Shown: piece after piece, positions 1,460 to 27,426 of the stretch | Position numbering within the stretch: position 1 is the first letter of the stretch | Layout of the letters: every line of letters begins with the position of its first letter | Virus record (IMG/VR): IMGVR_UViG_3300025164_000605 | Span: 1 to 29,649 of that record | Strand: one strand, 5' to 3' | From: a virus | DNA: 29,649 bases | Notes under the pieces: generated by a model | What the model was told of the DNA's origin: nothing | Database searches by the model: none | What the model saw: the letters and a program-made list of their open reading frames with translations, nothing else | Made by a program: the position numbers and the translations under genes

Positions 1460-3037
1460 TTAAAATTGTCGTTTTATAAACTGATGCAATTTTGGGGATT
1501 CAAAGAATTCTTCCTTCTTAATACTTTTTGGATTTTCTATAACCTCAATAAAATCCCTTTTTCCCCCTGCTCTGAAAATTGAGGATTGATCAAGAAATCC
1601 TAAATCCGCTAAATCTTTACCAGTAAATTGATCCATCATTCTTTGCATTGCGATTACGGCAGCCATACCAAGGCCCATTGTGATGTCGCTACTTGTATCC
1701 TCACTATGATCAATTCTCCAACCATAATTTTTTTCCACAACTTGTAAACCTTTTAATTCATCTTCAAGTTTTGGATATCTTGGTGAATCTATGCTTTGAT
1801 TTTTAAATAGATAAAACAAATTTCTACTAAGTTTACCAATATTTTCTGCTGTTAAATAATATTCAATAACTTCAATACCAGATGCCCTAAATCTTTGAAT
1901 AGTACCCATCAATTGCCAAGGGTCACATACCAATACGCAAGCATTAAAATTTGTAAGAATCATTATTAACTCTTTTTCAATTTCAGATATTTCTACAGGA
2001 TTTTCAGAACTTCCTAACCATCTTCTATAAAGATCTACAACTAATTTTTTATGTTCTCCATGTAGAACAGTAAGAGCTGCTGCATCTTTTTTCAATCCAA
2101 GATCAACTCCTACATAATGAGGCCCATTATAACATATTGATTTTTCTGACATAAAATTTTTAAAACATCCCCAACCCTCTTCTGGCATAAAAGGGTTTTC
2201 CCCCTCATCAACCCAGAGGTTTTTCCTAAATCTATTGAATACTTTTGGTGGCATTGATTTACGTTCTATCTCAAGCCATTGCTCAGATATCCAAGGAGTT
2301 TTTAATGAATCAAGCAATACACCTGTGGGTTCAAAAAAATAGAAATTTTTGAATTCTTGTGACTTACATAACTCGTGGACTTCCCAGCAAATAGATTTTT
2401 TATCATAACCAGCGTTTGTAATTATTATTCCCTGAGAACTTGGTTTAGCTGCTTGCCCAAGAAACATGGTATCAAATAAATCTCTATTGGGTTGATTCCA
2501 AAACTCATCAAATATGTAAAAATCTGGGTTACGTCCTTGTTTAGAAGATGCTTCTGAACTCATTACTTGAATCATCGCTCCTGTTGATTCTACAATTATC
2601 TCATTTTTATATATTGTAAATAAATCAACAAAATTAGGATTACGAGCAATAAAATCCTTAATTTTTTGCAATAAGTATGTGGCTTGAAATTTGTCCCCTG
2701 CTAAGATATAATTCTCTTCGGTGGGTCTGGGGGAAAGTAATAATTGAACAAGACCTTCCCCTCCTAGGAGAGCTGTTTTCCCCCACTTTTTTGGTAAACC
2801 TATATATAATAATCTATATGTAGGAAAGCCATCCTCATCTCTTTTATCAATAGGCTCATATATATAATCTATCTGCCATTGTTGACATAAATCTCCGAAA
2901 AGTCCCCCATTTGGGAAATCTATAGAAGGTTCTAGTACAAATTGCTCCTTGCGGAAGGTCATACGATTACTCATATATTCTTTGAGTTTAGCATCTGTTA
3001 ATTCGGGGGGGGCAACTTTTTTCTTTTTAATAAGCAT
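1460..3037 (-). CDS. terL: Terminase large subunit (TerL)
   Basis: This 525-residue protein is the ATP-driven DNA packaging motor and genome-cutting nuclease. The ATPase part has a Walker A loop GLPKKWGKT at residues 80-88, Walker B FYIFDE at 173-178 and a coupling motif IIITNAG at 204-210. The RNase H-like nuclease domain shows the expected acidic residues: D312 in YVGVDLGLKKDAA, D372 in LVCDPWQ and D451 in SSDITMGLGMA. Length and domain order are normal for TerL. The gene reads leftward, away from the portal, whereas in many phages the two are co-directional. A Shine-Dalgarno (AAGGAAG) precedes ATG 3035-3037. A promoter of the shared phage type lies just upstream, with its -10 at 3071-3076. 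Confidence 0.95.
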   Translation of the reverse strand: MLIKKKKVAPPELTDAKLKEYMSNRMTFRKEQFVLEPSIDFPNGGLFGDLCQQWQIDYIYEPIDKRDEDGFPTYRLLYIGLPKKWGKTALLGGEGLVQLLLSPRPTEENYILAGDKFQATYLLQKIKDFIARNPNFVDLFTIYKNEIIVESTGAMIQVMSSEASSKQGRNPDFYIFDEFWNQPNRDLFDTMFLGQAAKPSSQGIIITNAGYDKKSICWEVHELCKSQEFKNFYFFEPTGVLLDSLKTPWISEQWLEIERKSMPPKVFNRFRKNLWVDEGENPFMPEEGWGCFKNFMSEKSICYNGPHYVGVDLGLKKDAAALTVLHGEHKKLVVDLYRRWLGSSENPVEISEIEKELIMILTNFNACVLVCDPWQLMGTIQRFRASGIEVIEYYLTAENIGKLSRNLFYLFKNQSIDSPRYPKLEDELKGLQVVEKNYGWRIDHSEDTSSDITMGLGMAAVIAMQRMMDQFTGKDLADLGFLDQSSIFRAGGKRDFIEVIENPKSIKKEEFFESPKLHQFIKRQF

Positions 3038-3070
3038 TTTCTTCCTTATATATAATTGACAATTAAATTA

Positions 3071-3100
3071 ATTATATCACAGATAACAACAAAAAATAAA
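3071..3100 (-). promoter_or_regulatory. Phage-type promoter for the terL operon
   Basis: On the minus strand TTTATTTTTT (3100-3091) is followed after exactly 14 nt by TATAAT (3076-3071), about 34 nt before the terL start. The same box, spacing and -10 occur on the plus strand at 3113, 4388 and 12538. The match in spacing is the main support. Confidence 0.65.
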
Positions 3101-3112
3101 AAGTATTTTCTG

Positions 3113-3142
3113 TTTATTTTTTATGAGTTTTTATGGTAATAT
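3113..3142 (+). promoter_or_regulatory. Phage-type promoter for the zinc-ribbon gene and ncRNA region
   Basis: TTTATTTTTT (3113-3122), then 14 nt, then TAATAT (3137-3142). The sequence around the box is nearly identical to the promoters at 4388 and 12538, but the -10 is a poorer match. The box lies back to back with the terL promoter. The AAGGAG of the 3175 gene follows about 20 nt downstream of the -10. Confidence 0.6.
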
Positions 3143-3174
3143 AAGTTTATATTAGTTTATATAAGGAGTCTCTT

Positions 3175-3483
3175 ATGAACACTAAATGTAGTAATTGCAA
3201 CACATATATAGAAACTTTAACATTTTATCCACATCTTAAAGAAAATTTCTTTAAATCAAATATTGATATTTCTTCTGTCCCCATTGAAATAATGGAGGAT
3301 CTGCCTAAGTCACATCTTCATGTATTTTATGAATGCCCAAAATGTAAACGAAAACAAGCACTTGAAGATATTACATTATTAGAAGAAGATGAAATTGACA
3401 AAGTAATAAATAAAGGATATACTGTATCTGAAAAAAGAACTGTGCTTTATTGGCAAGAATGGTTGAAGAATAAAGAGAAATAG
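3175..3483 (+). CDS. Small zinc-ribbon protein, unknown function
   Basis: This 102-residue protein has two CxxC knuckles, C5-x2-C8 near the start and C54-x2-C57 (ECPKCKRK), the spacing of a zinc ribbon. Between them lies a stretch that reads like a short folded domain, and the end is acidic, then basic. I do not recognise a family. It is the first gene rightward of the divergent promoter region and has a good Shine-Dalgarno (AAGGAG, 7 nt before ATG). Because it is expressed from the same promoter class as capsid genes, it could be a small regulator or a packaging-associated protein. That is inference only. Confidence 0.6.
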   Translation: MNTKCSNCNTYIETLTFYPHLKENFFKSNIDISSVPIEIMEDLPKSHLHVFYECPKCKRKQALEDITLLEEDEIDKVINKGYTVSEKRTVLYWQEWLKNKEK

Positions 3484-3500
3484 TAAAATGGGGTCTTGGC

Positions 3501-3681
3501 ATGGAAGAAATAAAAGTAATAAGCAAAGAAGGAAAACAAAACTATATAAATACACAAAAAGTTCCCTTTCTAATGAAATTATTAACGAATCAAAAAAGTA
3601 GAAAAACCTTTTTTAATAAAAAAAGATGAAAAACAAGAAAGGATAGAAGCACAAACAAAAGGGCTTTCTTACAAAGATTGA
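3501..3681 (+). pseudogene. Broken or frameshifted small ORF
   Basis: From ATG 3501 one frame reads MEEIKVISKEGKQNYIN... and stops at 3627-3629. At the A6 run 3592-3597 the sequence makes better sense if one A is removed: the frame then continues VEKPFLIKKDEKQERIEA to the TGA at 3679-3681, giving a plausible protein of about 59 residues. So this is either a decayed gene, a homopolymer error, or frameshifted expression. A second tiny ORF (3488-3601, 37 residues, very basic) overlaps it. That ORF meets a classic slippery heptamer, A_AAA_AAG (3592-3598), immediately before its TAG, and a -1 shift there would enter the same downstream frame. Confidence 0.4.
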
Positions 3682-4290
3682 AACGGCAGCTAACATCCAT
3701 AGCATTCAATTTTAAGAAGAATACCCACCCCGATAGCATTTAGTAAATGTGACAAGGCAAAGGAACCCAAAAGGGTAGAGGGACTTCGGGGACAATAGCT
3801 TTTATATTGTAGGTGGACTAATGTTTCCACTAAAACAGCAAAAACATATATGTCCTGACTAACTATCTATTTTTGAAATCATTCCTTCTGAGGTTGAGTT
3901 TGGCTTCTGGGGTTTGGCTGGGTTGAATGGGTAGGAAAGATTAAACAAGTGGAATCTCTTTTAGGGAAAGGCATTTCTAAAAGGGATAAACTGTGTGATA
4001 TGTCAGGTACTACTTGAGGGTTTCAAGGAAAATAACTAAATAATTTCAACCTCACTTCCATTTATGTTTTTTATGGGGGGTAAGGGGGGTTGCCCTTAAA
4101 CTGTTTCATTCTGAAACATTATTAAGGAAATAAAACGATTCAGGTTTGGTTCGTTTCACTCACCTTCTGAATCGTGACGCACAGAAGTACCGTGCGTCAC
4201 ACAACGTAGTTGATTTACACTAAATACACTAAAACATAATTTATATTTTAATTTGAAGTCCTGAAAGGACTATTTTATAAGCCATTTTTA
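3682..4290 (+). ncRNA. Gene-free region with many stems: candidate large structured RNA
   Basis: No credible ORF occurs here, and base composition is less AT-rich than in the flanks. Perfect or near-perfect stems are: 3792-3797/3805-3810 (6 bp), 3813-3817/3826-3830 (5 bp), 3954-3964/3977-3987 (11 bp, one G-U), 4102-4108/4112-4118 (7 bp, triloop), 4135-4143/4167-4175 (9 bp), 4174-4182/4192-4200 (9 bp) and 4257-4262/4266-4271 (6 bp, followed by TATTTTAT). A long-range 9-bp pairing, 3889-3897 with 4046-4054, encloses the 11-bp hairpin. Two further 6-bp pairings, 3854-3859/4002-4007 and 3882-3887/4025-4030, would make pseudoknots. The size is like that of large phage-linked RNA classes (ROOL, GOLLD), but I cannot assign it to one. 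Strand is inferred from the promoter at 3113. Confidence 0.5.
4257..4278 (+). terminator. Weak terminator-like hairpin ending the structured region
   Basis: AGTCCT / AGGACT with a GAA loop is followed by ATTTTAT. The stem is short (6 bp) and the T run is interrupted, so termination is only possible. It lies between the structured region and the portal promoter. Confidence 0.35.
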
Positions 4291-4387
4291 TATCTTTACC
4301 CCCTGTTCCATTTTGGAGCATATCTATTTTTTAAAAATTCCCCAAAAAATTCAAATTTTTATAATTTTATAATTTTATAAGAAATTG

Positions 4388-4417
4388 TTTATTTTTTATG
4401 GTTTTTTATACTATAAT
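4388..4417 (+). promoter_or_regulatory. Phage-type promoter for the portal operon, probably leaderless
   Basis: TTTATTTTTT (4388-4397), 14 nt, TATAAT (4412-4417). The surrounding 35 bp differs at only 5 positions from the promoter at 12537. The ATG of the portal gene begins 7 nt after the -10, about where transcription should start, and no Shine-Dalgarno is present. Confidence 0.75.
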
Positions 4418-4424
4418 ATAGTAT

Positions 4425-6485
4425 ATGGCAAAATACAAACATTCTGAAAATTTTATAAAAAAACAAGAAATAAACCAATTATTTGGCAAAGACCCCACAT
4501 TGCTTGCTGATTTTACTAATTTTTTGGATAAAAAAGTTGGTAAAGTTGATTCAAGTGAACTTGCTAAACATGGGGGGCCTTTATCTAATATATATGGTTT
4601 TATTGCAGAGCATATTGGACAATACAATCCCGATGAAATATCTATAGATACATATAATAAAATGAGGATGAATGCCCAAATAGCTGCTGGGCTTAAAGTT
4701 ATAAAATTACCCATAATTGGCCAGCAATGGACAACTGTTTGTGATGATAAGGATATTGCAGAATTTATTGACCAATTATTAAGACCTTTATGGTATAACT
4801 TATTAACTTCTACACTAAGTGCTGTGGATTTTGGTTTTGCAGCTCATGAAATAGTTTATGATATAGAAGATATAAGTCTGAATAGAAAGTATGAAAATAA
4901 GCCTTTCTATAATGGCAAGGCTGTTGTGTGGAAAAAGTTTAAATCTTTATATCCTGATACAGTTACTATTAAATTAGATGAAAAAGAGAATTTTAATGGT
5001 ATTGTTCAAAAATGGGTAGGTAAAGATGTAATTCTTCCGGTGGAAAAATCTTTTATATTTACACATGATAAAGGTGATAGTTTTGGGAATTTGTTTGGAG
5101 TTAGTCGAATGAAACCTGCTTATGATGTTTGGTTCTTCTGGATAAATCTTTGTCAATTCATGATGAGATATTTTGAACGAAAAGGAACCCCTCCTACAAT
5201 CATAGGTTTTCCTTTGGGGCAAACAAAAGATGGAACAGATCATGCCGACATTGCTTTGGAGATAGGGAAGGCATTACAGGGGGAGAGCGTTGTTGCTGTG
5301 CCAAGTACAACGTATGAAAACACGCCAAAAAAGTGGACGGTTGATTATCTTCTTGACGATAAACGTGGGGAAATGTTCATTTCAGCACTAACTTTTTTTG
5401 AAAATAAAATCCTCCGTGCTATGTTTGTCCCTGAAAGAACAATTACGCAAGATTCTTCATCTAAAGCAGGGTCTTATTCTTTATCTCAGACCCACGCAGA
5501 TATGTTTCTTTTAGGTGAAGAAGCTTTGTTGGTAGATATAGAAAATCAAGTAAACAAATATGTGATTAGACGCCTTGTTGAATATAACTTTGGTGCTAAA
5601 GCACCCGAATGTTATATAAAAATTGAACGTATCACAGAGGCACGAAAAGGTTTTTTAAAAGATGTATTTATGGAAATGATAAAAAATGGATCTGCTATTC
5701 CTGCTGCAAGGGAGATTGCTGATGTTGTGGGAGTACCCCTTGATGATGATGGAAATCCAAATACAACTAATGATGATGGTCAAGGAAACCTTGACGGTTC
5801 AAATAAAAATAAGAAAGGTTCTGTAAAAGGTAACAAACCTGTTAAGAAAGAAGGAACAGATAATAAAAAATTTGGTGAAATTACTTGGTGGAGAGAACCC
5901 AATAAATTTGAAGACCCAAAAATGTTTTCTGAAATAGAAGAAAAATCAAATAAGATTGAAAAAGAATATTTAGATAATTTAGTAAATGAAATATGGATTA
6001 AACAGAGGGAACAAGTTATAAATAAGATAATAAAGATGTTATCTGATAAAGGTTCAGTAGAAGATATTTGGTATAAAAAAGTTATTGACCAAAATGATAC
6101 TGAAACTGTTACTTTATGGAGACCTTTAAACACAAAAATATTGGGGATATTTTCTTCTTTGATGAAAGAGGGGTATCTTTTTGGGCAAGCTACAGCGATT
6201 CAAGAATTGGGTATTGAAGATAAACCTATTTTGGATAAAGAAGGAAAATCTTTTATACAAGATAGAGCAAGAGTTATAACAGACCAATATTTTTCCAACA
6301 TGAAGTATAAAACGGAGATTGCTTTACTTTCAGCTTCATCTGAATTGAAAGAACAAGCAATTATAAATGATGTAAAAGCTCAATTTGATACCATAAAAGA
6401 TAAAAATTTAGTGGATATTGTTAATTCTGAATGGATGTTGTTCTTAAATAAAGGTAGAGCAAAAATTTCAAAGGAGTTTATTTAA
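4425..6485 (+). CDS. Portal protein, Mu gp29 / DUF935 type, with extended C-terminus
   Basis: This 686-residue protein forms the dodecameric head vertex through which DNA enters. Residues about 85-460 show the Mu gp29-like portal pattern: GLKVIKLPIIGQQW, DFGFAAHEIVYD, a central PPTIIGFPLG, then ENKILRAMFVPERTITQ followed by SYSLSQTHADMF. After a low-complexity linker (about 445-490, rich in Asp, Asn, Gly and Lys) the last 190 residues are mostly helical and look like the N-terminal part of a MuF/SPP1 gp7-type minor head protein. The zinc-like CRC part of such a protein is encoded by the next gene. Its ATG lies 7 nt after a strong -10 with no Shine-Dalgarno, so its mRNA may be leaderless. Confidence 0.88.
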   Translation: MAKYKHSENFIKKQEINQLFGKDPTLLADFTNFLDKKVGKVDSSELAKHGGPLSNIYGFIAEHIGQYNPDEISIDTYNKMRMNAQIAAGLKVIKLPIIGQQWTTVCDDKDIAEFIDQLLRPLWYNLLTSTLSAVDFGFAAHEIVYDIEDISLNRKYENKPFYNGKAVVWKKFKSLYPDTVTIKLDEKENFNGIVQKWVGKDVILPVEKSFIFTHDKGDSFGNLFGVSRMKPAYDVWFFWINLCQFMMRYFERKGTPPTIIGFPLGQTKDGTDHADIALEIGKALQGESVVAVPSTTYENTPKKWTVDYLLDDKRGEMFISALTFFENKILRAMFVPERTITQDSSSKAGSYSLSQTHADMFLLGEEALLVDIENQVNKYVIRRLVEYNFGAKAPECYIKIERITEARKGFLKDVFMEMIKNGSAIPAAREIADVVGVPLDDDGNPNTTNDDGQGNLDGSNKNKKGSVKGNKPVKKEGTDNKKFGEITWWREPNKFEDPKMFSEIEEKSNKIEKEYLDNLVNEIWIKQREQVINKIIKMLSDKGSVEDIWYKKVIDQNDTETVTLWRPLNTKILGIFSSLMKEGYLFGQATAIQELGIEDKPILDKEGKSFIQDRARVITDQYFSNMKYKTEIALLSASSELKEQAIINDVKAQFDTIKDKNLVDIVNSEWMLFLNKGRAKISKEFI

Positions 6486-10501: not shown

Positions 10502-11245
10502 ATGGAATTAATTAGAAACTTACCAACAAGAAGAGATAAAAATGGATATGCAGTATCCTGGGCCGTTTTTAAATGCCTTGCTTGTTTACAAGAAGTTGAA
10601 AGAAGATTAACTAATGGTTTAAAACAAAACTCTTGCGGTTGTGTTCAATACAAATTATCTTCTGAATCAAATAAAGGTCAAAAAAGAACAGAAGAGTCAA
10701 GACAAAAAATGAGAGAAAGTCATTTAGGTAAAAAATATACAGAAGAAACTAAAAAAATATGGTCTAAGCAAAGAAAAGGTGAGAATAATCCCATGTATGG
10801 TAAAATAGTATCTGAAGAAACAAGACAAAAGATAAGAGAAAAAGCTATAGGTAGAAAACATACAGAAGAGGAGAATAGAAGGAATTCTGAAAGAAATAAA
10901 GGAGAAAATAATCCTATGTATGATACTCATAGATTTGGTGAATTATCAACTAATTGGCAAAATGGAAAATCCTTTGAAATATATCCCCCTGAATTCAATA
11001 AGGGATTTAAACAACAAATATTGGAAAGAGATAACTATACATGTCAAGACCCAAATTGTGAACATAAATCAAATACTTTAGATGCACATCATATAGATTA
11101 TGACAAAAAGAACAATATACCAGAGAATGTTATAACTTTATGTAGAAGTTGTCACATGAAAACTAATGGCAAAAATAAAAGGCAATATTTTACAGAATTC
11201 TACCAAAATATAATGATGGGTAAATTAATGGAATGCTTACTATAA
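10502..11245 (+). CDS. HNH homing endonuclease with NUMOD3-like repeats
   Basis: This 247-residue protein is a free-standing phage homing endonuclease. The N-terminal zinc module has C25-x2-C28 and C45-x-C47. Residues about 57-145 contain NUMOD3-like DNA-binding repeats ([44 protein letters not shown]). The C-terminal HNH nuclease has C181 and C186, the core [12 protein letters not shown] (H196, H197), PEN with N209, and C214-x2-C217-H218. The closest relative in the window is the gene at 20625, alike along its whole length at the DNA level. It starts 1 nt after the stop of the upstream gene with no Shine-Dalgarno. It separates two paralogous virion genes, consistent with insertion between them. 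Confidence 0.92.
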
Positions 11246-12500: not shown

Positions 12501-12537
12501 AGATTTTGGTTATAACTCCTTGTTTTTAAAAGAAAAG

Positions 12538-12567
12538 TTTATTTTTTTTAGGTTTTTGTACTATAAT
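12538..12567 (+). promoter_or_regulatory. Phage-type promoter for the capsid operon
   Basis: TTTATTTTTT (12538-12547), 14 nt, TATAAT (12562-12567). Nearly identical to the portal promoter at 4388. Unlike the portal, a leader of about 25 nt with AAAGGGGGTGA precedes the scaffold ATG at 12600. Confidence 0.75.
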
Positions 12568-12599
12568 ATATTATAGGATTGATATAAAGGGGGTGAAGT

Positions 12600-17459: not shown

Positions 17460-18530
17460 ATGAATATTGGAATTGTGTCTGTATATTTTGATCGTGGTTC
17501 TGGCGTAATTTGTCAACAGATTAAACAAGCTATTCAGTGGCATATACCAAATGCCAATATATCTATTCTTGCCAGAATGTCCATAGCTGACAACAGAAAG
17601 AAAATAAAATACTGGGACGATTACTTCCACCCAAATATCTTGCTTTATCCAAATTATAAGATAGAAGAAGGGGATTTTGAACAATGGATTATTGCAAATA
17701 AACTTGATATAGTAATTTTTGTAGAGGAACAACATACCAAAAATCTTGTCCCAATTTGCAACAAATTAGGGGTCAAAAGTATAAATTATGTCGTATGGGA
17801 ATTCATAAATCCGGCAGAACTTCAATATTATCAACAGTTTACACATATTGTTTGTCCTACCAAATCCTCATATAATCTCTTAAAAAACGATCATCTTTTA
17901 GATAATGCTGTTTTTGTTCCTTGGGGGATAGATTTAGACCAATATTCCTTCCAAGAACCTATCAAAAAAGATAAACCCTTAATTTTTTTCCCAGCAGGTT
18001 TTGGTGGGGTAAATGATCGTAAGAATGAAAAAGCTGTAGTAGATGCTTTTAGTTGGATTTGCCCAAGAGACAAAACTTTACTGCACATTCATACACAGCA
18101 GGAGAATCAATCAGTGAGGTCACAAAATGTTATAAAATCAAGTTCCACTGTCTCTACTCAGGAACTTATTAAATATTACCAAGAGGCAGATTTGGTGGTA
18201 TTGCCAAGCCGATGGGAGGGTAATTGCCTTCCGCAGATGGAATCTTTAGCATTGGGCAGACCTGTAATAGCAACTGATTGTGCTCCTCTAAATGAAAGGA
18301 TAATTGAGGGGGAAAATGGTTATTTAATAAAAGTTAAAGAGAAGAAAGAAATTCCTGGAATTTTCGTTAAATCTTGTGAGGTAGACATTGTAGATTTTGC
18401 TGAGAAAATGATAGAACTATCTGAAAACAAAGAGGAATTATATAAAATGCAATTAGCAAGTAGGAAGTATGCTGAGGCTAACCTTGGGTGGTTTGAGAAT
18501 TCTAAACATTTAATTGACATAATTGTATAA
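17460..18530 (+). CDS. Glycosyltransferase, GT4 family (GT-B fold)
   Basis: This 356-residue enzyme transfers a sugar from a nucleotide sugar and is probably cytoplasmic. The C-terminal donor half has the GT4 signature VLPSRWEGNCLPQMESLALGRPVIATD. The E-x7-E motif is E253/E261, and the residues after it match the usual 'ALG.PVIATD' segment. VPWGIDLDQY (153-162) is the linker motif found before the second domain. The N-terminal half is a Rossmann-like acceptor domain. Substrates cannot be read from the sequence. It opens the island and has its own promoter. Confidence 0.88.
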   Translation: MNIGIVSVYFDRGSGVICQQIKQAIQWHIPNANISILARMSIADNRKKIKYWDDYFHPNILLYPNYKIEEGDFEQWIIANKLDIVIFVEEQHTKNLVPICNKLGVKSINYVVWEFINPAELQYYQQFTHIVCPTKSSYNLLKNDHLLDNAVFVPWGIDLDQYSFQEPIKKDKPLIFFPAGFGGVNDRKNEKAVVDAFSWICPRDKTLLHIHTQQENQSVRSQNVIKSSSTVSTQELIKYYQEADLVVLPSRWEGNCLPQMESLALGRPVIATDCAPLNERIIEGENGYLIKVKEKKEIPGIFVKSCEVDIVDFAEKMIELSENKEELYKMQLASRKYAEANLGWFENSKHLIDIIV

Positions 18531-18547
18531 TATGATAATATTAAACT

Positions 18548-19033
18548 ATGAATAAAATAATAAAAAGGAAAAAAGAAGATTTTGGGTTGGATTGTCATAC
18601 ATATATTATGCATAGATTGGGATTTGTTCCTGACCCTTCTAAGGAGGAATCAAGAAAACCAGCAATATATATTGCAACTATATTGCAACTTTTATGCCAA
18701 TATTGTGTTAATTGTGTTCTTAGAAGAACCCTTGAAATTGATTATTTGTGGTGGGAATTTGAACATAAGAAATTTCAAATTAAACCAGAGGAAACTTATA
18801 ATGATGTAGTATTAACATATATTTCAAGTAGATTAACAGACCCAGAAAATGATTGGACACCTTCAAATGATTGGAATAATCATAGCATAGAAGAAAAGAA
18901 GGATTGGGTTGATGAAACTCTTTCCATTTTAGCCAATAGCAATGCTAAAGAAGCTATTAGTAAAATAATAGAAATTGATAATCTTTATAGTGAATTTGAA
19001 AACAAATTTGGGAGTAGGTATAAAAACAAATAG
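18548..19033 (+). CDS. Unknown helical protein, paralogue of the 19043 protein
   Basis: This 161-residue protein is not recognised. The N-terminal half includes a run PAIYIATILQLLCQYCVNCVLRR (about 38-60) followed by an aromatic helix (LWWEFEHKKF). The C-terminal end, IDNLYSEFENKFGSRYKNK, matches DFYEEFENKFGDRYE near the middle of the next protein, and the DNA there is also similar. The two genes are therefore probably related. It lies between two glycosyltransferase genes. No enzymatic motif is seen. Confidence 0.5.
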   Translation: MNKIIKRKKEDFGLDCHTYIMHRLGFVPDPSKEESRKPAIYIATILQLLCQYCVNCVLRRTLEIDYLWWEFEHKKFQIKPEETYNDVVLTYISSRLTDPENDWTPSNDWNNHSIEEKKDWVDETLSILANSNAKEAISKIIEIDNLYSEFENKFGSRYKNK

Positions 19034-19042
19034 AGGTATAAA

Positions 19043-19390
19043 ATGACAAAAAAAGAGGAAAAAAAGTTAAGACCTTTAGAAAATTTTGAAGACGACTTTA
19101 TAGAGTACGCAGTTAATAGGCTTTCCTTGAATGAAAAGGAAGATGATATAGAATTAACAAAAGATTCAATTTACCATGCCTTACATCTTTTGTGGCAGTT
19201 TGGGGAAACAGATAGAGATTATAGATTTTTAATTGGATTTTTATCCAATGTATATGATTTTTATGAAGAATTTGAGAATAAATTTGGTGATAGATATGAG
19301 ACGACTTGCTCATGTTGTCAAGAAAAATTGGAAAATGGGGAAGACCCTACAGTAGAAGTTGATTTGGAAGATGATGAGGAAGAAAATTAA
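19043..19390 (+). CDS. Unknown acidic protein with CxxC motif, paralogue of the 18548 protein
   Basis: This 115-residue protein shares the EFENKFG(S/D)RY segment with the preceding gene (residues about 74-84). It then adds a short CSCCQEKLENGED stretch with closely spaced cysteines (about 88-92) and a very acidic end (VEVDLEDDEEEN). The N-terminus is charged and helical. Function is unknown. It ends directly on the ATG of the GT2-methyltransferase gene, so it is part of the same transcript. Confidence 0.5.
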   Translation: MTKKEEKKLRPLENFEDDFIEYAVNRLSLNEKEDDIELTKDSIYHALHLLWQFGETDRDYRFLIGFLSNVYDFYEEFENKFGDRYETTCSCCQEKLENGEDPTVEVDLEDDEEEN

Positions 19391-20623
19391 ATGAAATTCT
19401 CAATTATAATTACTGCATATAATCAACCCCAGTTTTTGTCAGAAGCGGTGGAGTCTTGTTATAATCAAATATATAAAGAACCATTTCAAGTAGTAATTAT
19501 AGATGATTCAGATACCCCATCTACCTCAAAAGTTTTATTGCCGGATAGACCTGAAATAGACTTAATATACGTGAAGAATGAGCAAAATCTTGGCCTACAG
19601 AAGAGTCATAACATAGGAGTTTATTATTCTAAAGGTGAATGGTTAATTAGATTAGACCACGATGATGTTTTGATGCCAGATGCTTTGCAAAAACTTTCAA
19701 ATTTTATTGATAAGGAAGTAAATAGAAAGATTGGATTTATATATTCAGATCTTAAAATTTTAGGAACAAATCAGGTTAGAAAATATCCTGAATGGAAATC
19801 TGGAAGTATAAAGGATCTTCAAAATATTGGGCATCTTCAATGCTACAGAAGGGATAAAACATTAGAAATTGGGGGATGGGACACAACGCTTAAATATTCC
19901 GCAGATACGGATTTTATTATTAGACTTGTGGGGCATTCTGTTCAACTAAAGCATATATCAGAAGTTTTGGTAGAGAATCGTTTGCATTCTGAGCAATTTA
20001 CTCAGAAATGGGTAAGAGAAGGAAATGACCCTCAGTATTGGAAGAATTTAATATTTAATCGGGCACTCCAACGGAGACCCGACCTTTGGGTTGAGGGGAA
20101 ATTCAATATTATTTTACAAACATCTGGTAGTCATTTATGGAGGTCTGAGACAGAATTTATAAATAATTTTTTAAAGACACAAGAAAATATGTTGAACGGC
20201 CTGGATTTAGGTTGTAATAATCGAAAAAAGGTGAATTTTGCAGTTGGGGTGGATCAAGACAGAAATGGTGGGAAGACACCAGAATTAGTTTGGGATGGGA
20301 CAAAGGAATTACCTTTTAGAGATGAAACACTTGATTTTATTTGTGCTTCTCATCTTATCGAACATATTAAAGACCCTGTTCAAGCAGTAGAAGATTGGTT
20401 TAAGAAATTAAGAGTTGGAGGGGTATTGTTACTTATTGTTCCTCATAAAAGATATATTCCAAACATCGGGACAGAACAAGCAGACCCAACCCACATAAAT
20501 GACTTTTTGCCAGAAGATTTTAGGAACATGGTTTTAGCTAAATTACAAACACAATTTAAATTATTAAGTTTTGATAAAATTCAAAATTCATGGTCTTTTG
20601 ATTGTTTTTTACAAAAATTATAA
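19391..20623 (+). CDS. Glycosyltransferase 2 fused to a methyltransferase
   Basis: This 410-residue protein has two domains. Residues 1 to about 235 are a GT2 (GT-A) glycosyltransferase: FSIIITAYNQPQFLSEAVES at the start, VVIIDDS (34-40), NEQNLGLQKSHNIG, the metal-binding RLDHDD (D89-D92) and GGWD (161-164). Residues about 265-410 are a class I SAM methyltransferase: LDLGC (271-275), VGVDQD, LPFRDETLDFICASHLIEHI (H321-I326 region) and GGVLLLIVPH. Such a protein could add a sugar and then methylate it, or methylate the glycan end to stop growth. That coupling is inference. The next gene, a homing endonuclease, starts 1 nt after the stop. Confidence 0.88.
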   Translation: MKFSIIITAYNQPQFLSEAVESCYNQIYKEPFQVVIIDDSDTPSTSKVLLPDRPEIDLIYVKNEQNLGLQKSHNIGVYYSKGEWLIRLDHDDVLMPDALQKLSNFIDKEVNRKIGFIYSDLKILGTNQVRKYPEWKSGSIKDLQNIGHLQCYRRDKTLEIGGWDTTLKYSADTDFIIRLVGHSVQLKHISEVLVENRLHSEQFTQKWVREGNDPQYWKNLIFNRALQRRPDLWVEGKFNIILQTSGSHLWRSETEFINNFLKTQENMLNGLDLGCNNRKKVNFAVGVDQDRNGGKTPELVWDGTKELPFRDETLDFICASHLIEHIKDPVQAVEDWFKKLRVGGVLLLIVPHKRYIPNIGTEQADPTHINDFLPEDFRNMVLAKLQTQFKLLSFDKIQNSWSFDCFLQKL

Positions 20624-20624
20624 T

Positions 20625-21296
20625 ATGAAATTAATAAGAAAAACAAGAAAAGAGAAAAATAAGAATGGTAGATGGATTTATTATGGCATATTTTTATGTT
20701 CTTTTTGTTTACAAGAAGTTGAAAGACAATTAAGTAGTGGAAAAAGATGTAAATCCTGTGGTTGTCAGCAATATTCTAAGGAAAGAAATAAGAAAGTATC
20801 TGAATCTAAAAAGGGAAAGAACAATCCACAATTTGGAAAAAAGGGTGAAAAAAGCCCCTCTTTTGGTAAAAAAGTTACAGAAGAAACAAGATTAAAAATA
20901 AGAAATAAAGCTATGGGGAGAGAAGTGTTAGAAGAAACAAGACAAAAAATGTCTAAATATAGAAAGGGTAAATGGATAGGAAAAGATAACCCTATGTATG
21001 GGAAGAAACGGGAATTATCCCCAAATTGGAATGGAGGCTCTTCTTTTGAAATATATCCTAAAGAATTTAATAAAGAATTTAAACAATTCATTAAAAATAG
21101 AGATTTAAATATATGTCAAACACCTGGATGTATGAACACAGAAAATTTATGTATTCACCATATAGATTATGACAAGAAAAACAATAACCCAGAAAATTTA
21201 ATAACTTTGTGTGGTAATTGTCATTGTAAAACAAATGTACATAATAGGGAATATTGGACTAATTATTATTCTGAGATTGTGAGTGTTTATTTATAA
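20625..21296 (+). CDS. HNH homing endonuclease with NUMOD3-like repeats
   Basis: This protein has 223 residues from ATG 20625, the start aligned with the 10502 relative; a longer frame overlapping the upstream gene is unlikely. The zinc module has C25-x2-C28 and C45-x-C47. NUMOD3-like repeats follow over about 60-130 (KGKNNPQFGKK, GEKSPSFGKK, TEETRLKIRNKAMGRE, NPMYGKK). The HNH domain has C164 and C169, [15 protein letters not shown] (H178, H179, N191), then C196-x2-C199-H200. DNA around 20710-20735 and 21165-21205 is close to that of the 10502 gene, which suggests spread within this genome or between close relatives. It interrupts the glycan island. No Shine-Dalgarno is present. Confidence 0.92.
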   Translation: MKLIRKTRKEKNKNGRWIYYGIFLCSFCLQEVERQLSSGKRCKSCGCQQYSKERNKKVSESKKGKNNPQFGKKGEKSPSFGKKVTEETRLKIRNKAMGREVLEETRQKMSKYRKGKWIGKDNPMYGKKRELSPNWNGGSSFEIYPKEFNKEFKQFIKNRDLNICQTPGCMNTENLCIHHIDYDKKNNNPENLITLCGNCHCKTNVHNREYWTNYYSEIVSVYL

Positions 21297-21305
21297 AGGA
21301 TAAAT

Positions 21306-21911
21306 ATGGATTATCAAAAACATCTTTTTATCACGGGATTTTTTAGATCAGGGACTTCACTACTCACCAAATTTTTGCATGACTTAGGTTATAATACAGG
21401 AGGTTCTTGGAACGATTCCATAAATGCAGGTTTTGAAGACGAACAGGTACAAGCCGTTTTAACTACTTTTCAAAATAACCCTTTTTCAGAAGAACTAATT
21501 TTATTTTTGGAAAAAGAAATTGCTAAAATTGATAAAATTGTTATGAAGCACCCTCGTTTACTTTTTAATCCAAATATTTTAAAAATTTGGACTGTGGTAA
21601 AACCTAATATATCTGTTTTAATAACCTATAGGGAACCATTACACGCATTAGAATCAAAGAAAAGTCATGGTAATTTAGGATATTACACAAATTTCTCACC
21701 TGCTGAATTGGATGAAAAATTTAAAGTTTTTATAAATACGTGTATAAATCTTAGAATAAAACACCATATTTTGTATTTTCCCTATTTTCTTGAGAATTAT
21801 GATGAGGTTTATCATAGTATAAGTTCTTTGGGCATTCATATAGATAAGGATAGAGGAAGACAAATTTGGCATTCTATTGTAGATTTTGAAAAGGTACACT
21901 ATGGAAAATAA
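21306..21911 (+). CDS. Sulfotransferase-family protein
   Basis: This 201-residue protein has a 5' PAPS-binding loop ITGFFRSGTSLLTKF (residues 9-23) and a 3' phosphate motif ITYREPLHALESKKS in which R109 and S117 have the usual seven-residue gap. KHPRL at 81-85 is also typical. Sulfotransferases move sulfate from PAPS to hydroxyls or amines of sugars, proteins or lipids. Here the neighbours suggest a glycan target. The protein is short for the family but keeps both cofactor motifs. It follows the inserted homing endonuclease by 9 nt and overlaps the next gene by 11 nt. Confidence 0.8.
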   Translation: MDYQKHLFITGFFRSGTSLLTKFLHDLGYNTGGSWNDSINAGFEDEQVQAVLTTFQNNPFSEELILFLEKEIAKIDKIVMKHPRLLFNPNILKIWTVVKPNISVLITYREPLHALESKKSHGNLGYYTNFSPAELDEKFKVFINTCINLRIKHHILYFPYFLENYDEVYHSISSLGIHIDKDRGRQIWHSIVDFEKVHYGK

Positions 21912-22779
21912 AAAAAGAATACATTTGGTTGGGGCTAATACAAAGAACCCTAATGGGATGGAAAATTTTATTTCAAAAGCATTTAAAGATTTGGGTTATG
22001 AAGTAATAGAAACCGATTATAGAGTTATGAATAGACACGAAGTTTCTAATAGAATAAGATATATTACAGATGCAGAATTTTTGTTGGTAATTAAGGGGGA
22101 ACGCATAAACCCAGAGGATGTTTTTGCTTGCAGGATATGTAAAATACTATATTTGCAAGACTCTGTGCAAGCAAACCAAGAAGCCGCTTTCATTATTCAG
22201 ACAAAATCCCCTCTATTTGATATTGTATATTCCTTCACAGAAGCAGAGCTTCCTTTTTATAAACAATTCAATAAGAATTCTTTTTTCCTTCCATTAGCGG
22301 CGGATAAAGAAGTTCATAAAGATTTGCAAGTATCAAATAAATTAATAGATGTTGGGTTCGTTGGCAATCTGAATGTGAATAGGATCAATATGATAAACTA
22401 TTTATTGGATAAGGGAATCCCCATCCAGTATTCTTATACACATATAGATTATGTAAAAACAGTTAATGACACAAAAATCAATCTTAACATAGGAATAACA
22501 AACTCAGGATACCAAATGAGGGTGTTTGAAATTTTGAGTATGGGGGGACTTCTTCTAACAAATAAAGTGGAAGGGGAAACAGAATTATTTCAAGATGGGA
22601 TACACCTTAGATATTATAAAGACTTTGACGATTTGGTAAATCTATGTTACTATTATAATATACACAGAAGCGAAGCAAAAGAAATTGCAGGAAGAGGACA
22701 AGACTTGGTTTTAAGAAAACATCTATATACTCATAGAGTTCAACAAATCGTGGAGGATGTATGCCAGATGAAGAATTGA
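21901..22779 (+). CDS. Glycosyltransferase, CgeB-like (GT-B fold)
   Basis: This protein has 292 residues from ATG 21901, chosen because AAAAGG lies 6 nt upstream; an upstream TTG would overlap more of the previous gene. The second half carries the CgeB/DUF3880-type signature: DVGFVGNLNVNRINMINYLL, INLNIGITNSGYQMRVFEILSMGG, then TNKVEGETELFQDGIHLRYYKDFDDLV. Members are nucleotide-sugar-dependent glycosyltransferases involved in surface glycans, including spore-coat maturation. The N-terminal half has the expected Rossmann layout. It overlaps the sulfotransferase upstream and the methyltransferase downstream, so the three are tightly coupled. Confidence 0.82.
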   Translation: MENKKRIHLVGANTKNPNGMENFISKAFKDLGYEVIETDYRVMNRHEVSNRIRYITDAEFLLVIKGERINPEDVFACRICKILYLQDSVQANQEAAFIIQTKSPLFDIVYSFTEAELPFYKQFNKNSFFLPLAADKEVHKDLQVSNKLIDVGFVGNLNVNRINMINYLLDKGIPIQYSYTHIDYVKTVNDTKINLNIGITNSGYQMRVFEILSMGGLLLTNKVEGETELFQDGIHLRYYKDFDDLVNLCYYYNIHRSEAKEIAGRGQDLVLRKHLYTHRVQQIVEDVCQMKN

Positions 22780-23579
22780 GAGAAATTTATAATAAAGTTT
22801 ATGAAAATGACAAGGAAGAATTTTTCACATCTCCATTAGACCTTATATATTCCGAAGTTTATAAAATGATTAAAAATCATATAAATGGGAAAAAAATCTT
22901 GGATTTGGGGTGCGGGACAGGAAATTTCTTAACAAGATATGCAACTTTGGAAGAACCTTCTGAGCTTCACGGCTATGACTTTTCTGGGGTAGGAATAAAT
23001 AAAGCAAAAGAAAACGAAGTAACAGCGTTGCGAAAGATTGATTTTAGACATATATCATTTGAAGATCTAAAATTTGAAATTGAGGAAAATCTTTGTCTTG
23101 ATAAAGAACACTTTGATGTCATTGCATCAATCGGCGTTATCGAACACCTTGATAATCCTGAAATTTTGTTTTATATCGCAAATAAACTTTTAAAATCCGG
23201 TGGTTATTTTGTTTTGGAACATCCAAATTTTCTAAATCTTAGGGGTGTTATATGGAAAACATTAGAATTGTTTGTTGGAGCAGAAATGTCAAAAACAGAT
23301 AAACAAATGATTTTGCCTGATAAAATATTTGAATACATTAATCGCTATGATTTTGAATGTGAAACAATTTTAACCTTTGATCAAGAGAGGGGGATGTATT
23401 TAGATATGGTTAGAGATTTTGTTACAAGATTAAAACTATCAATGGAGGGCAAAGTAGCAGATTTGGATACAAAAATAGTTGCTTTTTTTGAATACTTAAA
23501 ATTTGTAACAAACGAAAGGATTTTTATATCGGGACCTGCAAATGGAGCGGAGATACTCTATAAATTTAGGAAGAAATAA
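22761..23579 (+). CDS. SAM-dependent methyltransferase
   Basis: This 272-residue class I methyltransferase has motif I KILDLGCGTGNF (45-56), an acidic partner in HGYDFSGVGIN (70-80) and the motif IGVIEHLDNPE (124-134). SGGYFVLEHPN follows as the strand 5 segment. The C-terminal 90 residues (about 180-272) are not part of the core and may bind the substrate. GGAGG lies 4 nt before ATG and inside the end of the previous gene. The neighbouring CgeB-like glycosyltransferase suggests O- or N-methylation of a glycan; the true target is unknown. Confidence 0.85.
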   Translation: MPDEELREIYNKVYENDKEEFFTSPLDLIYSEVYKMIKNHINGKKILDLGCGTGNFLTRYATLEEPSELHGYDFSGVGINKAKENEVTALRKIDFRHISFEDLKFEIEENLCLDKEHFDVIASIGVIEHLDNPEILFYIANKLLKSGGYFVLEHPNFLNLRGVIWKTLELFVGAEMSKTDKQMILPDKIFEYINRYDFECETILTFDQERGMYLDMVRDFVTRLKLSMEGKVADLDTKIVAFFEYLKFVTNERIFISGPANGAEILYKFRKK

Positions 23580-23599
23580 TTAATAAAAAGGAGACTAAA

Positions 23600-23803
23600 A
23601 TGGGGAGAAAGAAATTGGAAGTAGGTTCAACAGTAAAGGAAAAGGTATTTAAGTTTTTAGATGAAGCTGGGGGTAGTCTTTCTTATAATATGATTACATC
23701 GGTTTCTTTAAAAGAATCAACTTTCAGAACGATTCTCAGTCAATGGAGGAAAGAAAAGGGTGTTGTGGTAAAAAGAGGGGGAAGAAAGAAGGTAAATGAT
23801 TAA
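23600..23803 (+). CDS. Small basic protein, winged-helix-like
   Basis: This 67-residue protein is basic at both ends. VKEKVFKFLDEAGGSLSYNMITSVSLKESTFRTILSQWRKEKGVVVKRGG reads like a helix-turn-helix with a beta wing (helices at about 12-21, 28-36 and 38-50), a size seen in small DNA-binding regulators. It has a good ribosome binding site (AAAGGAG) and overlaps the following membrane gene by TAATG. It could regulate the island or host genes; there is no direct evidence. Confidence 0.5.
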   Translation: MGRKKLEVGSTVKEKVFKFLDEAGGSLSYNMITSVSLKESTFRTILSQWRKEKGVVVKRGGRKKVND

Positions 23804-23982
23804 TGAAACTAAAAAACAAAAAAAGACTTTTTGGTATTGGAGCAATGCTCGGATCTGTTTTTGTTGGGCAGTATAGAGTTAATATGGAAAATGATTATCT
23901 TTATTTTTTATACACAATTTCAGTAATTGCTTTATTTGTTTGGGGATTTTTTGTGACTCTTTTTAATGAACTTGAGAACTAA
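23803..23982 (+). CDS. Small membrane protein with two spans
   Basis: This 59-residue protein starts at the ATG that overlaps the previous stop (TAATG). A basic start MKLKNKKR is followed by a first hydrophobic segment (LFGIGAMLGSVFVGQY, about 9-24) and a longer second one (LYFLYTISVIALFVWGFFVTLF, about 33-54). The size and layout suit a small inner-membrane protein. I do not recognise a family. The next gene starts 2 nt after the stop. Confidence 0.5.
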   Translation: MKLKNKKRLFGIGAMLGSVFVGQYRVNMENDYLYFLYTISVIALFVWGFFVTLFNELEN

Positions 23983-23984
23983 AA

Positions 23985-24737
23985 GTGGAAAATAATTTAG
24001 AAAAACCTACATACAATACTACAGTTATTGTACCCATGAGATCAGGCTCAAAGGAAATAAAAAATAAAAATATTAAGAATTTCCTTGATCTACCACTTTA
24101 TTATTGGACCATCAAAAAATTATATCACTTATATAAGAATGGAAAAATTAATAAAGTAATAGTTTCTTCTGACAGTGATTGGTACTTGGAAATGGTAAAA
24201 TTGCACTTCGGATTAATATTTGATGAAGAGGCTTTAATTTTATCAAAAAGAATAGATGATTTAGCAACAAGTTTCACAACAACTGAGGAAGTATGCCTAA
24301 ACGAACTCTACAAGTATGGAATATATACAGGTATTTTGGGTATTGTTGAAGTGACTTCCCCCTTAATACCAATAGACTCATTAGATCTTATGCTTGATTC
24401 AATAGATGATTGTGTGGATTCTTCTTTTATCATTCATGAAGATATTGGGCAATTTTGGAAATGTCCGAGACCAAAGTTTGAATGGGAAGCATTATATACC
24501 GATAGGAAAATGAGGCAAAATGATGATGATACTTTATTTAGAGAAGTTGGAGCTTGGGCTATTAAAATAGAAAGATTTTTGAAGGATAGGGTTAGAATTG
24601 TTCATCCATGCAAACCAGTTATTATTGATAAATTATATGGTATAAGTATAAATGATGAAATTGATTTTGTTAATGCAGAAGCTTTAATGAAAGAAAATTC
24701 TGCTCAAATTTTTAAAAATACTGGAATTTATAAATGA
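23985..24737 (+). CDS. CMP-nonulosonate cytidylyltransferase (NeuA/PtmB-like)
   Basis: This 250-residue enzyme starts at GTG. VIVPMRSGSKEIKNKNI (14-30) is the CTP-binding signature of acylneuraminate cytidylyltransferases (usual form IPARxGSKGIPxKN). IVSSDSDWYLEMVKLHFG follows and VTSPLIPIDSLD (123-134) is the second motif. Such enzymes attach CMP to sialic, legionaminic or pseudaminic acid and so activate it for transfer. Which nonulosonate is used cannot be read here. The gene opens a run of coupled sugar genes: it overlaps the next gene by ATGA, and a NeuB-like synthase lies at the end of the window. In flagellar glycan clusters the same pair is called PtmB and PtmA. Confidence 0.85.
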   Translation: MENNLEKPTYNTTVIVPMRSGSKEIKNKNIKNFLDLPLYYWTIKKLYHLYKNGKINKVIVSSDSDWYLEMVKLHFGLIFDEEALILSKRIDDLATSFTTTEEVCLNELYKYGIYTGILGIVEVTSPLIPIDSLDLMLDSIDDCVDSSFIIHEDIGQFWKCPRPKFEWEALYTDRKMRQNDDDTLFREVGAWAIKIERFLKDRVRIVHPCKPVIIDKLYGISINDEIDFVNAEALMKENSAQIFKNTGIYK

Positions 24738-25495
24738 ATAAAAAAATAATACTCGTTGCTGGTGGTCACGGTTTACTTGGGGGTGAATTTGCATATACAT
24801 TATCCAAAGATGATAATAATGAAGTAATTATTTTGGATTTGCCAAGTAAAAAAATCAATAGATTGATTAAAAAATCACGTTTTTACCCAATAGATATTAC
24901 AGATGAAGAGGATGTTAAAACAACAATTTATCAAATATATGATAATTATGACAGAATTGATATACTTATTAATTGTGCTGCTATAAATTTTCCTCCAAAA
25001 GAAGGTGTGAATAACAGTTTTGAAATCTATAGTTTAGACAAATGGAATAAAACATTATCTGTTAATTTAACAGGAGCTTTTTTGCTTAGTAGAGAATGCA
25101 TAAAATATATGTTGAAAAATACAAATGAAGGGTTTAAGGGAACTATTGTGAATATAATATCAGACCTTGGTATAATAACAAGTGATCAAAGAATATATGA
25201 AAATGGATATATTAAACCACCAGATTATAGTGTCTCAAAAGCAGGTCTTATACATCTAACTAAGTACATTGCCAGTTATTATGGCAGTCAGATCAAGTCG
25301 GTTTGTTTATCCCCAGGAAGTGTGTATAATGGGCAATCAGATACTTTAAAAAAGAATTTGGAAGATAAAATACCGATCGGCAGGCTTGCCAAAGTTGATG
25401 AGTATAATGGTTCAATTAAATTTTTGTGTAGTTCAGACTCAGATTATATGCAAGGGGGTAATTTAATTTGTTGTGGAGGTAGAGATATAATATGA
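24734..25495 (+). CDS. Short-chain dehydrogenase (PtmA-like)
   Basis: This 253-residue short-chain dehydrogenase has cofactor motif GGHGLLGG (10-17), NCAA (80-83), and the catalytic set S143 with Y165-x3-K169 (YSVSK). D35 in IILDLPSKK suggests NAD rather than NADP. It overlaps the NeuA-like gene by 4 nt, the same gene pair as PtmB/PtmA of Campylobacter legionaminic acid flagellar clusters. A sugar-nucleotide or nonulosonate precursor is the probable substrate. It ends with another ATGA overlap to the isomerase gene. Confidence 0.85.
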   Translation: MNKKIILVAGGHGLLGGEFAYTLSKDDNNEVIILDLPSKKINRLIKKSRFYPIDITDEEDVKTTIYQIYDNYDRIDILINCAAINFPPKEGVNNSFEIYSLDKWNKTLSVNLTGAFLLSRECIKYMLKNTNEGFKGTIVNIISDLGIITSDQRIYENGYIKPPDYSVSKAGLIHLTKYIASYYGSQIKSVCLSPGSVYNGQSDTLKKNLEDKIPIGRLAKVDEYNGSIKFLCSSDSDYMQGGNLICCGGRDII

Positions 25496-26322
25496 ATAAT
25501 ATCGGAATAATGCAAGGAAGATTAATCCCACCAAGGGGAAGAGAGCATGTGCAATTTAATCCCTATGGTCAGGAAATAAGCGAAGAATTTGAAAAAATTA
25601 GTGAGATTGGATTAGACTATATTGAATGGATAATACCAAAAACAAACCCCAATTTATTTTTAGGTGATTTTTATTCCTGTGGCACGATCCAGAGTTTAAT
25701 TAAATATTTTAAAGTTCCAATTAATGCCGTTTGTTTAGATTATTTAATGGATATGGATTTGAATAAGGATGAAAATTTAATTTTTGCAAAAAAGTTATTG
25801 ACTTGGATAGCTAATATCGCATATAGGGTTGATTGTGGGTTATTGGTTATTCCCATATATGTAAAAAATATGGATTTTCCAACAATTCAAGCATTGTTAT
25901 CTTCAGTCATAGAAAATTTCCATGTAAGAATAGCTTTTGAATTTTTAGATGTAAATAGTTTTGCAGGAATAAATTTTATAAATGATCTAACTTACCCTGA
26001 TAAATTAAATTCAAGATCGGGTAGAATAGGGTGTTGTTTTGATATTGGAAATAATTATAATAGAGATGTAATTAAAGAAATGGAAAATTATAATGATTAT
26101 AATATGTTACATCATATTCATATAAAAGAAAAGGATTCTAAAGGAAATACAGTTCCATTGGGCGAAGGTGTTATTGGAAGAAATGGATGGAAGGATTTAT
26201 TTACATTTTTAAGAAGGGTGGATTACTTGGGAAATTTTACATTACAAGTCGCTCGTGGCGTGGAAGGGGAAGAAGTAGAAACTATCAAAGAACAAATTGA
26301 ATTTGTTAGGGATTTATTATAA
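25492..26322 (+). CDS. Xylose isomerase-like TIM-barrel sugar isomerase/epimerase
   Basis: This 276-residue protein opens with NIGIMQGRLIPPRGREHVQFNPY, a start typical of xylose isomerase-like (AP endonuclease 2 fold) proteins that occur in surface sugar gene clusters. Likely metal ligands are spread over the barrel: the Glu in IEWIIP (about 45), FEFLD (about 152), FDIGNNYN (about 183) and HHIHIKEK (about 206-209), plus the final LQVARG strand. It could interconvert a sugar in the nonulosonate route or act as a lyase. It is linked by ATGA overlap to the dehydrogenase, and its stop is immediately followed by the next ATG. Confidence 0.78.
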   Translation: MNNIGIMQGRLIPPRGREHVQFNPYGQEISEEFEKISEIGLDYIEWIIPKTNPNLFLGDFYSCGTIQSLIKYFKVPINAVCLDYLMDMDLNKDENLIFAKKLLTWIANIAYRVDCGLLVIPIYVKNMDFPTIQALLSSVIENFHVRIAFEFLDVNSFAGINFINDLTYPDKLNSRSGRIGCCFDIGNNYNRDVIKEMENYNDYNMLHHIHIKEKDSKGNTVPLGEGVIGRNGWKDLFTFLRRVDYLGNFTLQVARGVEGEEVETIKEQIEFVRDLL

Positions 26323-26778
26323 ATGATGGCAGAAGATAAAAATTTTATAAAGTCTTTAAATTTGCAGGGCAGAACTTTAGATGTTGGTAGTTTGGATATA
26401 AATGGTTCTATAAAAAGTTTATGTGAAGGTTTTTATATCGGAATAGATATAAGAAAAGGCAAAAATGTAAATATTCAAGCATCAAGTCACAATTTACCAT
26501 TTAAATCAAATAGTTTTGATAATGTTATTTCTATAGGAACATTGGAGCATGATACTTGTTTTTGGACAAGTTTAGATGAGATGAAAAGGGTGTTAAAAGT
26601 GGGTGGAAAATTAATATTAAGTGTTCCTGAGTATAAGTTCAAATATCATGAACACCCAAAAGATTATTGGAGATTTAGTTTAGATGCTGTAAAATTATGT
26701 TTTAATCATTTTTCAAATATTATTATATGGGAATCAAAAATTAAAGATGATTGCATAAGAGTTTGGGGGATTAAGTAA
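26323..26778 (+). CDS. Small SAM-dependent methyltransferase
   Basis: This 151-residue methyltransferase keeps the core only: TLDVGS as a modified motif I (18-23; LDVGS instead of LDxGxGxG), GIDIRKGKNVNI with the acidic SAM residue, LPFKSNSFDNVISIGTLEH, then VLKVGGKLILSVPEY. HPKDYWRFSLDAVK is typical of methyltransferases in glycan clusters. Either ATG 26323 or ATG 26326 may be used. It is probably a glycan methyltransferase by context. Confidence 0.78.
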   Translation: MMAEDKNFIKSLNLQGRTLDVGSLDINGSIKSLCEGFYIGIDIRKGKNVNIQASSHNLPFKSNSFDNVISIGTLEHDTCFWTSLDEMKRVLKVGGKLILSVPEYKFKYHEHPKDYWRFSLDAVKLCFNHFSNIIIWESKIKDDCIRVWGIK

Positions 26779-26780
26779 AA

Positions 26781-27425
26781 ATGGAGAGAGAAACTTTTTA
26801 TAAAAAATACAATGATACTGAAAAAGTTAATAAAATAATTCAAGATTTTCATGACTTGTACTATGAATCCTCTTGTATTGGTGGAACTTGGAAAAACACT
26901 AATTGGTTGGGAGTTCCTATTCAGAAATGTCCATTAGATTGTTGGATATATCAAGAATTAATTTGTAATATAAGACCTGATTATATTATAGAAACTGGGA
27001 CTAAAGTTGGGGGTTCTGCATTGTTTTTTGCATCAATATGTGATATGATAGGTAATGGGAAAATTATAACAGTAGATACTAATGGTAAGGGGAACTTGCC
27101 TGAACATGGAAGGATTTCTTATCTCTGGGCTAATTCTGTTGATGAAGCTACAATAAATTTTATTAATCCAAAGGTGAAAGATAAAAAAGTTATGGTTATT
27201 CTTGATAGTGACCATTCTAAAAGTCATGTTTTAAAAGAACTTGAAATATATAGTAAATTTGTTTCTGTAGGGTCTTACATTATTGTGGAAGATACAAATA
27301 CAGCAGAACCATTAGAAGCTGTTTTTGAATTTATTGGTAATTCCAAGAATTTTATAATTGATAGATATTGTGAAAAATTTTATTTAAGTTTTGCTCCGTA
27401 TGGATTTTTGAAGAGGGTGAAATAA
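26781..27425 (+). CDS. CmcI-family hydroxylase/methyltransferase
   Basis: This 214-residue protein matches the CmcI family (cephalosporin hydroxylase-related, mostly methyltransferases). WLGVPIQKCPLDCWIYQELI (42-61) is the family signature, followed by YIIETGTKVGGSALFFA (68-84), IITVDT with D99, VILDSDHSKSHVLKEL (139-154) and GSYIIVEDT. Relatives methylate sugars such as rhamnose in surface glycolipids. The start has no strong Shine-Dalgarno and lies 2 nt after the previous stop. Confidence 0.8.
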   Translation: MERETFYKKYNDTEKVNKIIQDFHDLYYESSCIGGTWKNTNWLGVPIQKCPLDCWIYQELICNIRPDYIIETGTKVGGSALFFASICDMIGNGKIITVDTNGKGNLPEHGRISYLWANSVDEATINFINPKVKDKKVMVILDSDHSKSHVLKELEIYSKFVSVGSYIIVEDTNTAEPLEAVFEFIGNSKNFIIDRYCEKFYLSFAPYGFLKRVK

Positions 27426-27426
27426 T

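Follow-up and report, generated by a model that had tools for sequence, protein, structure and literature searches.

The ORF-free stretch at positions 3682-4290 (plus strand) of the window, i.e. the whole 29.6-kb fragment of an uncultured phage that was analysed, is best explained as the gene of a lineage-specific, fast-evolving structured phage RNA outside the catalogued families, and we assign this reading a probability of roughly 0.5. The locus is conserved in related phages, its 3′ hairpin covaries, and G·U pairs of the plus strand occur in the relatives. The support is moderate at the level of the locus, whereas it is weak for the fold proposed for the window. The first-pass annotation had described a candidate large structured RNA; what remains of that description is a conserved, ORF-free and fold-prone locus with a covarying 3′ hairpin and with G·U pairs in a 5′ hairpin, but not the long-range and pseudoknotted architecture.

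Gene-free gap and promoter motifs

The window is 92% coding, and 3484-4424 (941 nt) is its sole gap of more than 250 bp. The gene order around the gap is the terminase large subunit gene terL (1460-3037, minus strand; PF03354, phrog_9), which is divergent from the RNA and portal side, a gene for a 102-aa putative zinc-ribbon protein (3175-3483, plus strand), the 941 nt without a gene, and a Mu-type portal protein gene (4425-6485, plus strand; PF06074, phrog_113). The longest stop-free run in the gap is 58 codons, which is shorter than the shuffle mean of 67. These results confirm the earlier claim that the stretch is gene-free. The zinc-ribbon protein is 48-52% identical to its counterparts in three relatives with the CxxC pairs kept; nothing in Pfam, PHROG or PDB matched it above threshold, it had no confident family or fold, and structure prediction followed by a fold search gave no usable match. 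The plus-strand spacer between this gene and the candidate RNA (3484-3681) possibly contains a decayed remnant of the DUF559 nuclease, which occupies the same place in two relatives, L005 and L006.

Elsewhere in the window, translations suggested HNH-type homing-endonuclease-like ORFs at 10502-11245, 20571-21296 and 28407-28961, located among structural and sugar-modification genes. Also judged from translations, genes resembling those of glycosyltransferases, methyltransferases, nucleotide-sugar enzymes and dehydrogenases follow one another over a long distance at 17460-28401, an unusual content for so short a phage fragment.

A common promoter motif, consisting of TTTATTTTTT, a spacer and a TATAAT-like box, was found before terL, the zinc-ribbon gene and the portal gene, and in the relatives as well. 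The copy on the terL side (TTTATTTTTT...TATAAT; 3064-3099, minus strand) was obtained by a pattern scan. The phage-type copy before the 102-aa gene (3111-3143, plus strand) is an 82% identical repeat of the portal promoter (4386-4424, plus strand; motif at 4386-4418), which is conserved in all four relatives; flanking promoters had been predicted at 3113 and 4388, in agreement with these positions. An equivalent of the 3111-3143 promoter precedes the zinc-ribbon gene in two relatives, L005 and L007. The same motif also occurs at 12533-12575 of the window, before a gene starting at 12600. In each of the five phages, the portal −10 box and the ATG are only about 10 nt apart, so that the portal mRNA is probably leaderless. 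Because the portal gene has a separate promoter, the stretch would be part of the transcript of the zinc-ribbon gene rather than of a portal leader, and the promoter at 3111-3143 would serve the RNA as well.

Viral contigs were scanned with the portal, terL and zinc-ribbon proteins, and each scan gave the same few records: copies nearly identical to the window, plus four relatives that are independent, namely L005 (a 73-kb record, G001), L006, L007 and L008 (a short contig ending before the zinc-ribbon gene). The searched collections therefore held five independent sequences, including the window. No match was obtained in a DNA search of 50,697 phage records or in a portal scan of genome contigs. 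All four relatives keep 450-600 nt free of ORFs before the portal gene; this stretch is accompanied by the portal gene in L005-L008 and by the zinc-ribbon gene in L005-L007, the three in which the terL side and the zinc-ribbon gene are visible. In these three, a tRNA-Gln gene is located 0.1 kb 5′ of the zinc-ribbon gene; no tRNA gene was found in the window.

Folding and covariation

The fold energy of 3682-4290 corresponded to z −2.3 on the plus strand and −4.1 on the minus strand (60 shuffles), and that of 3640-4300 to z −4.1 and −7.4, respectively (only 20 shuffles). Among 147 scanned segments, the core at 4001-4250 ranked second on the plus strand (z −4.4) and first on the minus strand (z −6.0). 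Plus-strand folding also surpassed shuffles in all four relative stretches (z −2.4 to −3.8), and minus-strand folding was equal to it in some of them. On the other hand, the number of long hairpins in the window was equalled in 18-57 of 200 shuffles. It is therefore apparent that the stretch as a whole folds beyond chance and that its single features do not. Since the minus strand of the window folds at least as strongly as the plus strand, the window by itself cannot separate an RNA from DNA palindromes.

The three local stems reported earlier were each found exactly in place on the plus strand. The stem 3954-3964/3977-3987 (11 bp including one G·U) extends to 14 bp (3954-3967/3974-3987; hairpin at 3954-3987) and is without comparative support. 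The hairpin at 4135-4175 (4135-4143/4167-4175) has nine Watson-Crick pairs, and its 23-nt loop holds the 15-nt word GTTCGTTTCACTCAC (4149-4163), which is identical to positions 438-452 of L008 (0 of 300 shuffles). The hairpin at 4174-4200 (GTGACGCAC/GTGCGTCAC, 4174-4182/4192-4200) likewise has nine Watson-Crick pairs and has two bases in common with the preceding stem. A long-range pairing of nine Watson-Crick pairs (3889-3897/4046-4054) is present as described, but it does not exceed chance, since the number of 9-bp long-range complementary pairs was matched in 18 of 200 shuffles; the pseudoknots once proposed have no support of their own by the same count.

The conserved 3′ hairpin AGTCC-TGAAA-GGACT (4257-4271, plus strand) is present once in the window and twice in each of the four relatives. 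It takes the form xGTCC-UGAAA-GGACx, in which the UGAAA loop is invariant; every further occurrence of the hairpin word in these records falls within coding sequence. In the nine copies from five phages, 95% of the cells were paired, both sides changed in a compensatory manner in four of the five pairs, and the covariation score was higher than that of all shuffles (0 of 500 reached it). The outer stem likewise covaried (six copies). These 3′ hairpins are purely Watson-Crick with zero G·U pairs and, taken alone, could therefore be DNA. A scan with a double-hairpin pattern gave four new matches, all of which were within coding sequence and were rejected as chance.

L005, L006 and L007 each have, in their 5′ part, a 9-bp hairpin whose loop is A/T-rich (AAATA, GAATA and TTAAATATA). 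It was 100% paired, with compensatory changes in 4 of 9 pairs, and 10 of its 27 cells were G·U, which indicates plus-strand RNA because only the plus-strand RNA forms these pairs. The trio was picked by eye, including the match in L007, and 8 of 500 shuffles reached its score, which is modest support. In L005, near-identical hairpins at 5366-5391 and 5460-5485 (TTCCTAT, loop GTNNNATTTG, ATAGGAA) represent an internal duplication.

The stretches were further compared with a home-made structural aligner using reversed and shuffled controls, and all but three pairs were covered. The alignment of L005 with L006 scored above all of its controls, i.e. 40 shuffles and the two reversed sequences (z 3.5), the match of L005 with L007 was hardly above the reversed-sequence control, and the window showed a weak likeness to the relatives (z 0.1-2.1). 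The 5′ domain could thus be aligned clearly only between L005 and L006. A covariance model built from these two found neither the window nor L007 nor L008 and gave no new member, and a pattern derived from their 5′ domain matched those two only. An automatic alignment of all five stretches was unreliable in the 5′ part, and this alignment was kept out of the covariation analysis. Covariation in relatives, named beforehand as a check, was obtained for the 3′ hairpin in five phages and for the 5′ hairpin in three, and not for the window's own large fold. Beyond the 3′ hairpin this fold is without covariation support because its 5′ part is not securely alignable to any relative, and comparative support for the window comes only from the 3′ hairpin and the 15-nt word in common with L008.

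Alternative explanations

A DNA element at the genome's divergence point, either a cos/pac packaging site or an origin of replication, with palindromes that function as DNA, is an unlikely explanation that still deserves serious weight. It would account for the adjoining terL, for the equally strong folding of both window strands, for the purely Watson-Crick 3′ hairpins, and for the ends of contigs L002 and L017 near the region. In addition, the GC and AT skews of the 73-kb relative are lowest at 10.97-11.16 kb, where terL and the zinc-ribbon gene diverge, and highest at 48-49 kb, where the gene orientations converge; an origin might thus be situated close to the stretch but outside it. However, the skew minimum is about 1.2 kb away from the RNA stretch, within the AT-rich tRNA/promoter gap, and could arise from gene orientation alone. 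Protein-binding DNA repeats keep their sequence and do not covary, and the 5′ hairpin of L005-L007 requires G·U pairs. Furthermore, zero iterons were seen, and DnaA-like words were only scattered. A search for end repeats in the 73-kb record found none. The coordinates 10.9-11.2 and 48.2-49.3 kb divide this record into two near-equal arms, as if replication proceeded bidirectionally from the terL gap.

It is rather improbable that the stretch is a hot spot of selfish elements, at which free-standing nucleases (relatives of DUF559 and DUF7487) and palindromes gather, no RNA function is involved, and the 5′ parts are swapped instead of evolving. This reading would fit the DUF559 nucleases immediately 5′ of the stretch in L005 (4702-5355) and L006 (4744-5415), which are 47% identical while their neighbours are much closer, the DUF7487 ORF on the 3′ side of the stretch in L008, and the flanks of L005 and L007, which are 84% identical around a stretch that BLAST could not align. 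A possible nuclease remnant in the window at 3610-3648 points the same way, although this 13-residue match (69%, E 0.07) is weak. On the other hand, the covarying helices, the constant position and the 3′ element imply selection on structure, and the nuclease relative in the crAss-like phage cr106_1 is followed by tRNA genes and not by such a stretch. A coupling of nuclease and RNA was also considered and rejected, as the nuclease relatives found elsewhere yielded no such RNA. The two DUF559 nucleases contain C2H2-like zinc fingers and overlap the end of the zinc-ribbon gene.

There is little to recommend a cis-acting leader or attenuator that controls read-through into the portal operon. The stretch lies directly 5′ of the portal gene on the same strand, and the window has two terminator-like sites, one of which is the conserved 3′ hairpin followed by ATTTTAT; the hairpin copies of L005-L008 have no U-run, however, and the portal gene's own promoter in the five phages would place the stretch outside the portal mRNA. 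A very divergent ROOL, GOLLD, or group I or II intron is scarcely credible, since, despite the size, the phage setting, the upstream tRNA-Gln in three relatives and a conserved 3′ and variable 5′ part as in GOLLD (PMC12286853), nothing fitting the stretch was found at E<=10 and direct searches for ROOL, GOLLD, group I introns and one part of group II introns were negative.

Proposed RNA and comparison with known systems

For the structured phage RNA that we favour, transcription of the plus strand would start from the promoter at 3111-3143 and pass through the 102-aa zinc-ribbon gene to yield a noncoding RNA of roughly 0.45-0.6 kb. Its 5′ part would be a chain of hairpins evolving very fast, and its 3′ part would end in the conserved two-tier hairpin with the invariant UGAAA loop, in one or two copies. 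Since its loop is conserved on a stem that covaries freely, this hairpin is most readily interpreted as a putative site of recognition or processing at the 3′ end of the RNA. The body of the RNA may act in trans after the manner of GOLLD, ROOL or the ICP1 RNA, and the adjoining zinc-ribbon protein could be its partner. A bolder version, to be held only tentatively, is that the stretch represents a new class of large phage RNA: its body would evolve fast, its tail would be the conserved UGAAA hairpin, a dedicated zinc-ribbon protein would be made together with it, and in the infected cell it might assemble into an RNA or RNA-protein particle.

Large phage RNAs of the kind of GOLLD, ROOL and the ICP1 RNA are abundant but still lack an explanation. 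If the proposed reading is true, a further family exists in a lineage without a cultured member, which would mean that phages have acquired RNAs of this kind repeatedly; the constant protein neighbour would provide a handle on their function. If the stretch instead turns out to be a DNA element for packaging or an origin, it shows where these sites lie in an unstudied phage group.

The first-pass annotation had likened the stretch to ROOL or GOLLD. As membership, this likeness failed in direct covariance-model searches and in Rfam scans: cmscan of the window and relatives found no relevant family at the gathering threshold or at E<=10. The ROOL model (RF03087) matched none of six records at E<=10, a search in which the control genomes were also silent, so that the cmscans are the firmer basis; GOLLD (RF02032) matched one relative only by chance, at 5.3 bits and outside the stretch. 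No covariance-model match to the group I intron core (RF00028) was found, and neither RF01998, which models a group II domain, nor any group II model of Rfam gave a match.

By description, ROOL resembles the candidate in its length near 600 nt, its phage setting and the tRNA nearby in three relatives, and differs in that the stretch has no ROOL match at E<=10. The long noncoding RNAs of phage K, which are abundant and have been likened to GOLLD and ROOL (PMC9241854), are also comparable by description and belong to a different phage group. GOLLD is a large phage RNA, often near tRNA genes, with a conserved 3′ and a variable 5′ region (PMC12286853). The candidate has the same division and, in three relatives, the same tRNA vicinity, whereas its conserved 3′ part comprises one or two small hairpins and its length is about 450-600 nt compared with more than 800 nt in many GOLLD members. 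The noncoding RNA of ICP1, about 800 nt long, occupies an ORF-less gap in a compact phage genome and needs no tRNA (PMC7567579). The stretch fills such a gap as well, but beside portal and terL, whereas the ICP1 gap adjoins the lysis cluster; the ICP1 RNA was shown by RNA-seq, whereas the candidate is known from sequence and is likened to it by description. The resemblances to GOLLD and the ICP1 RNA are likenesses, not membership.
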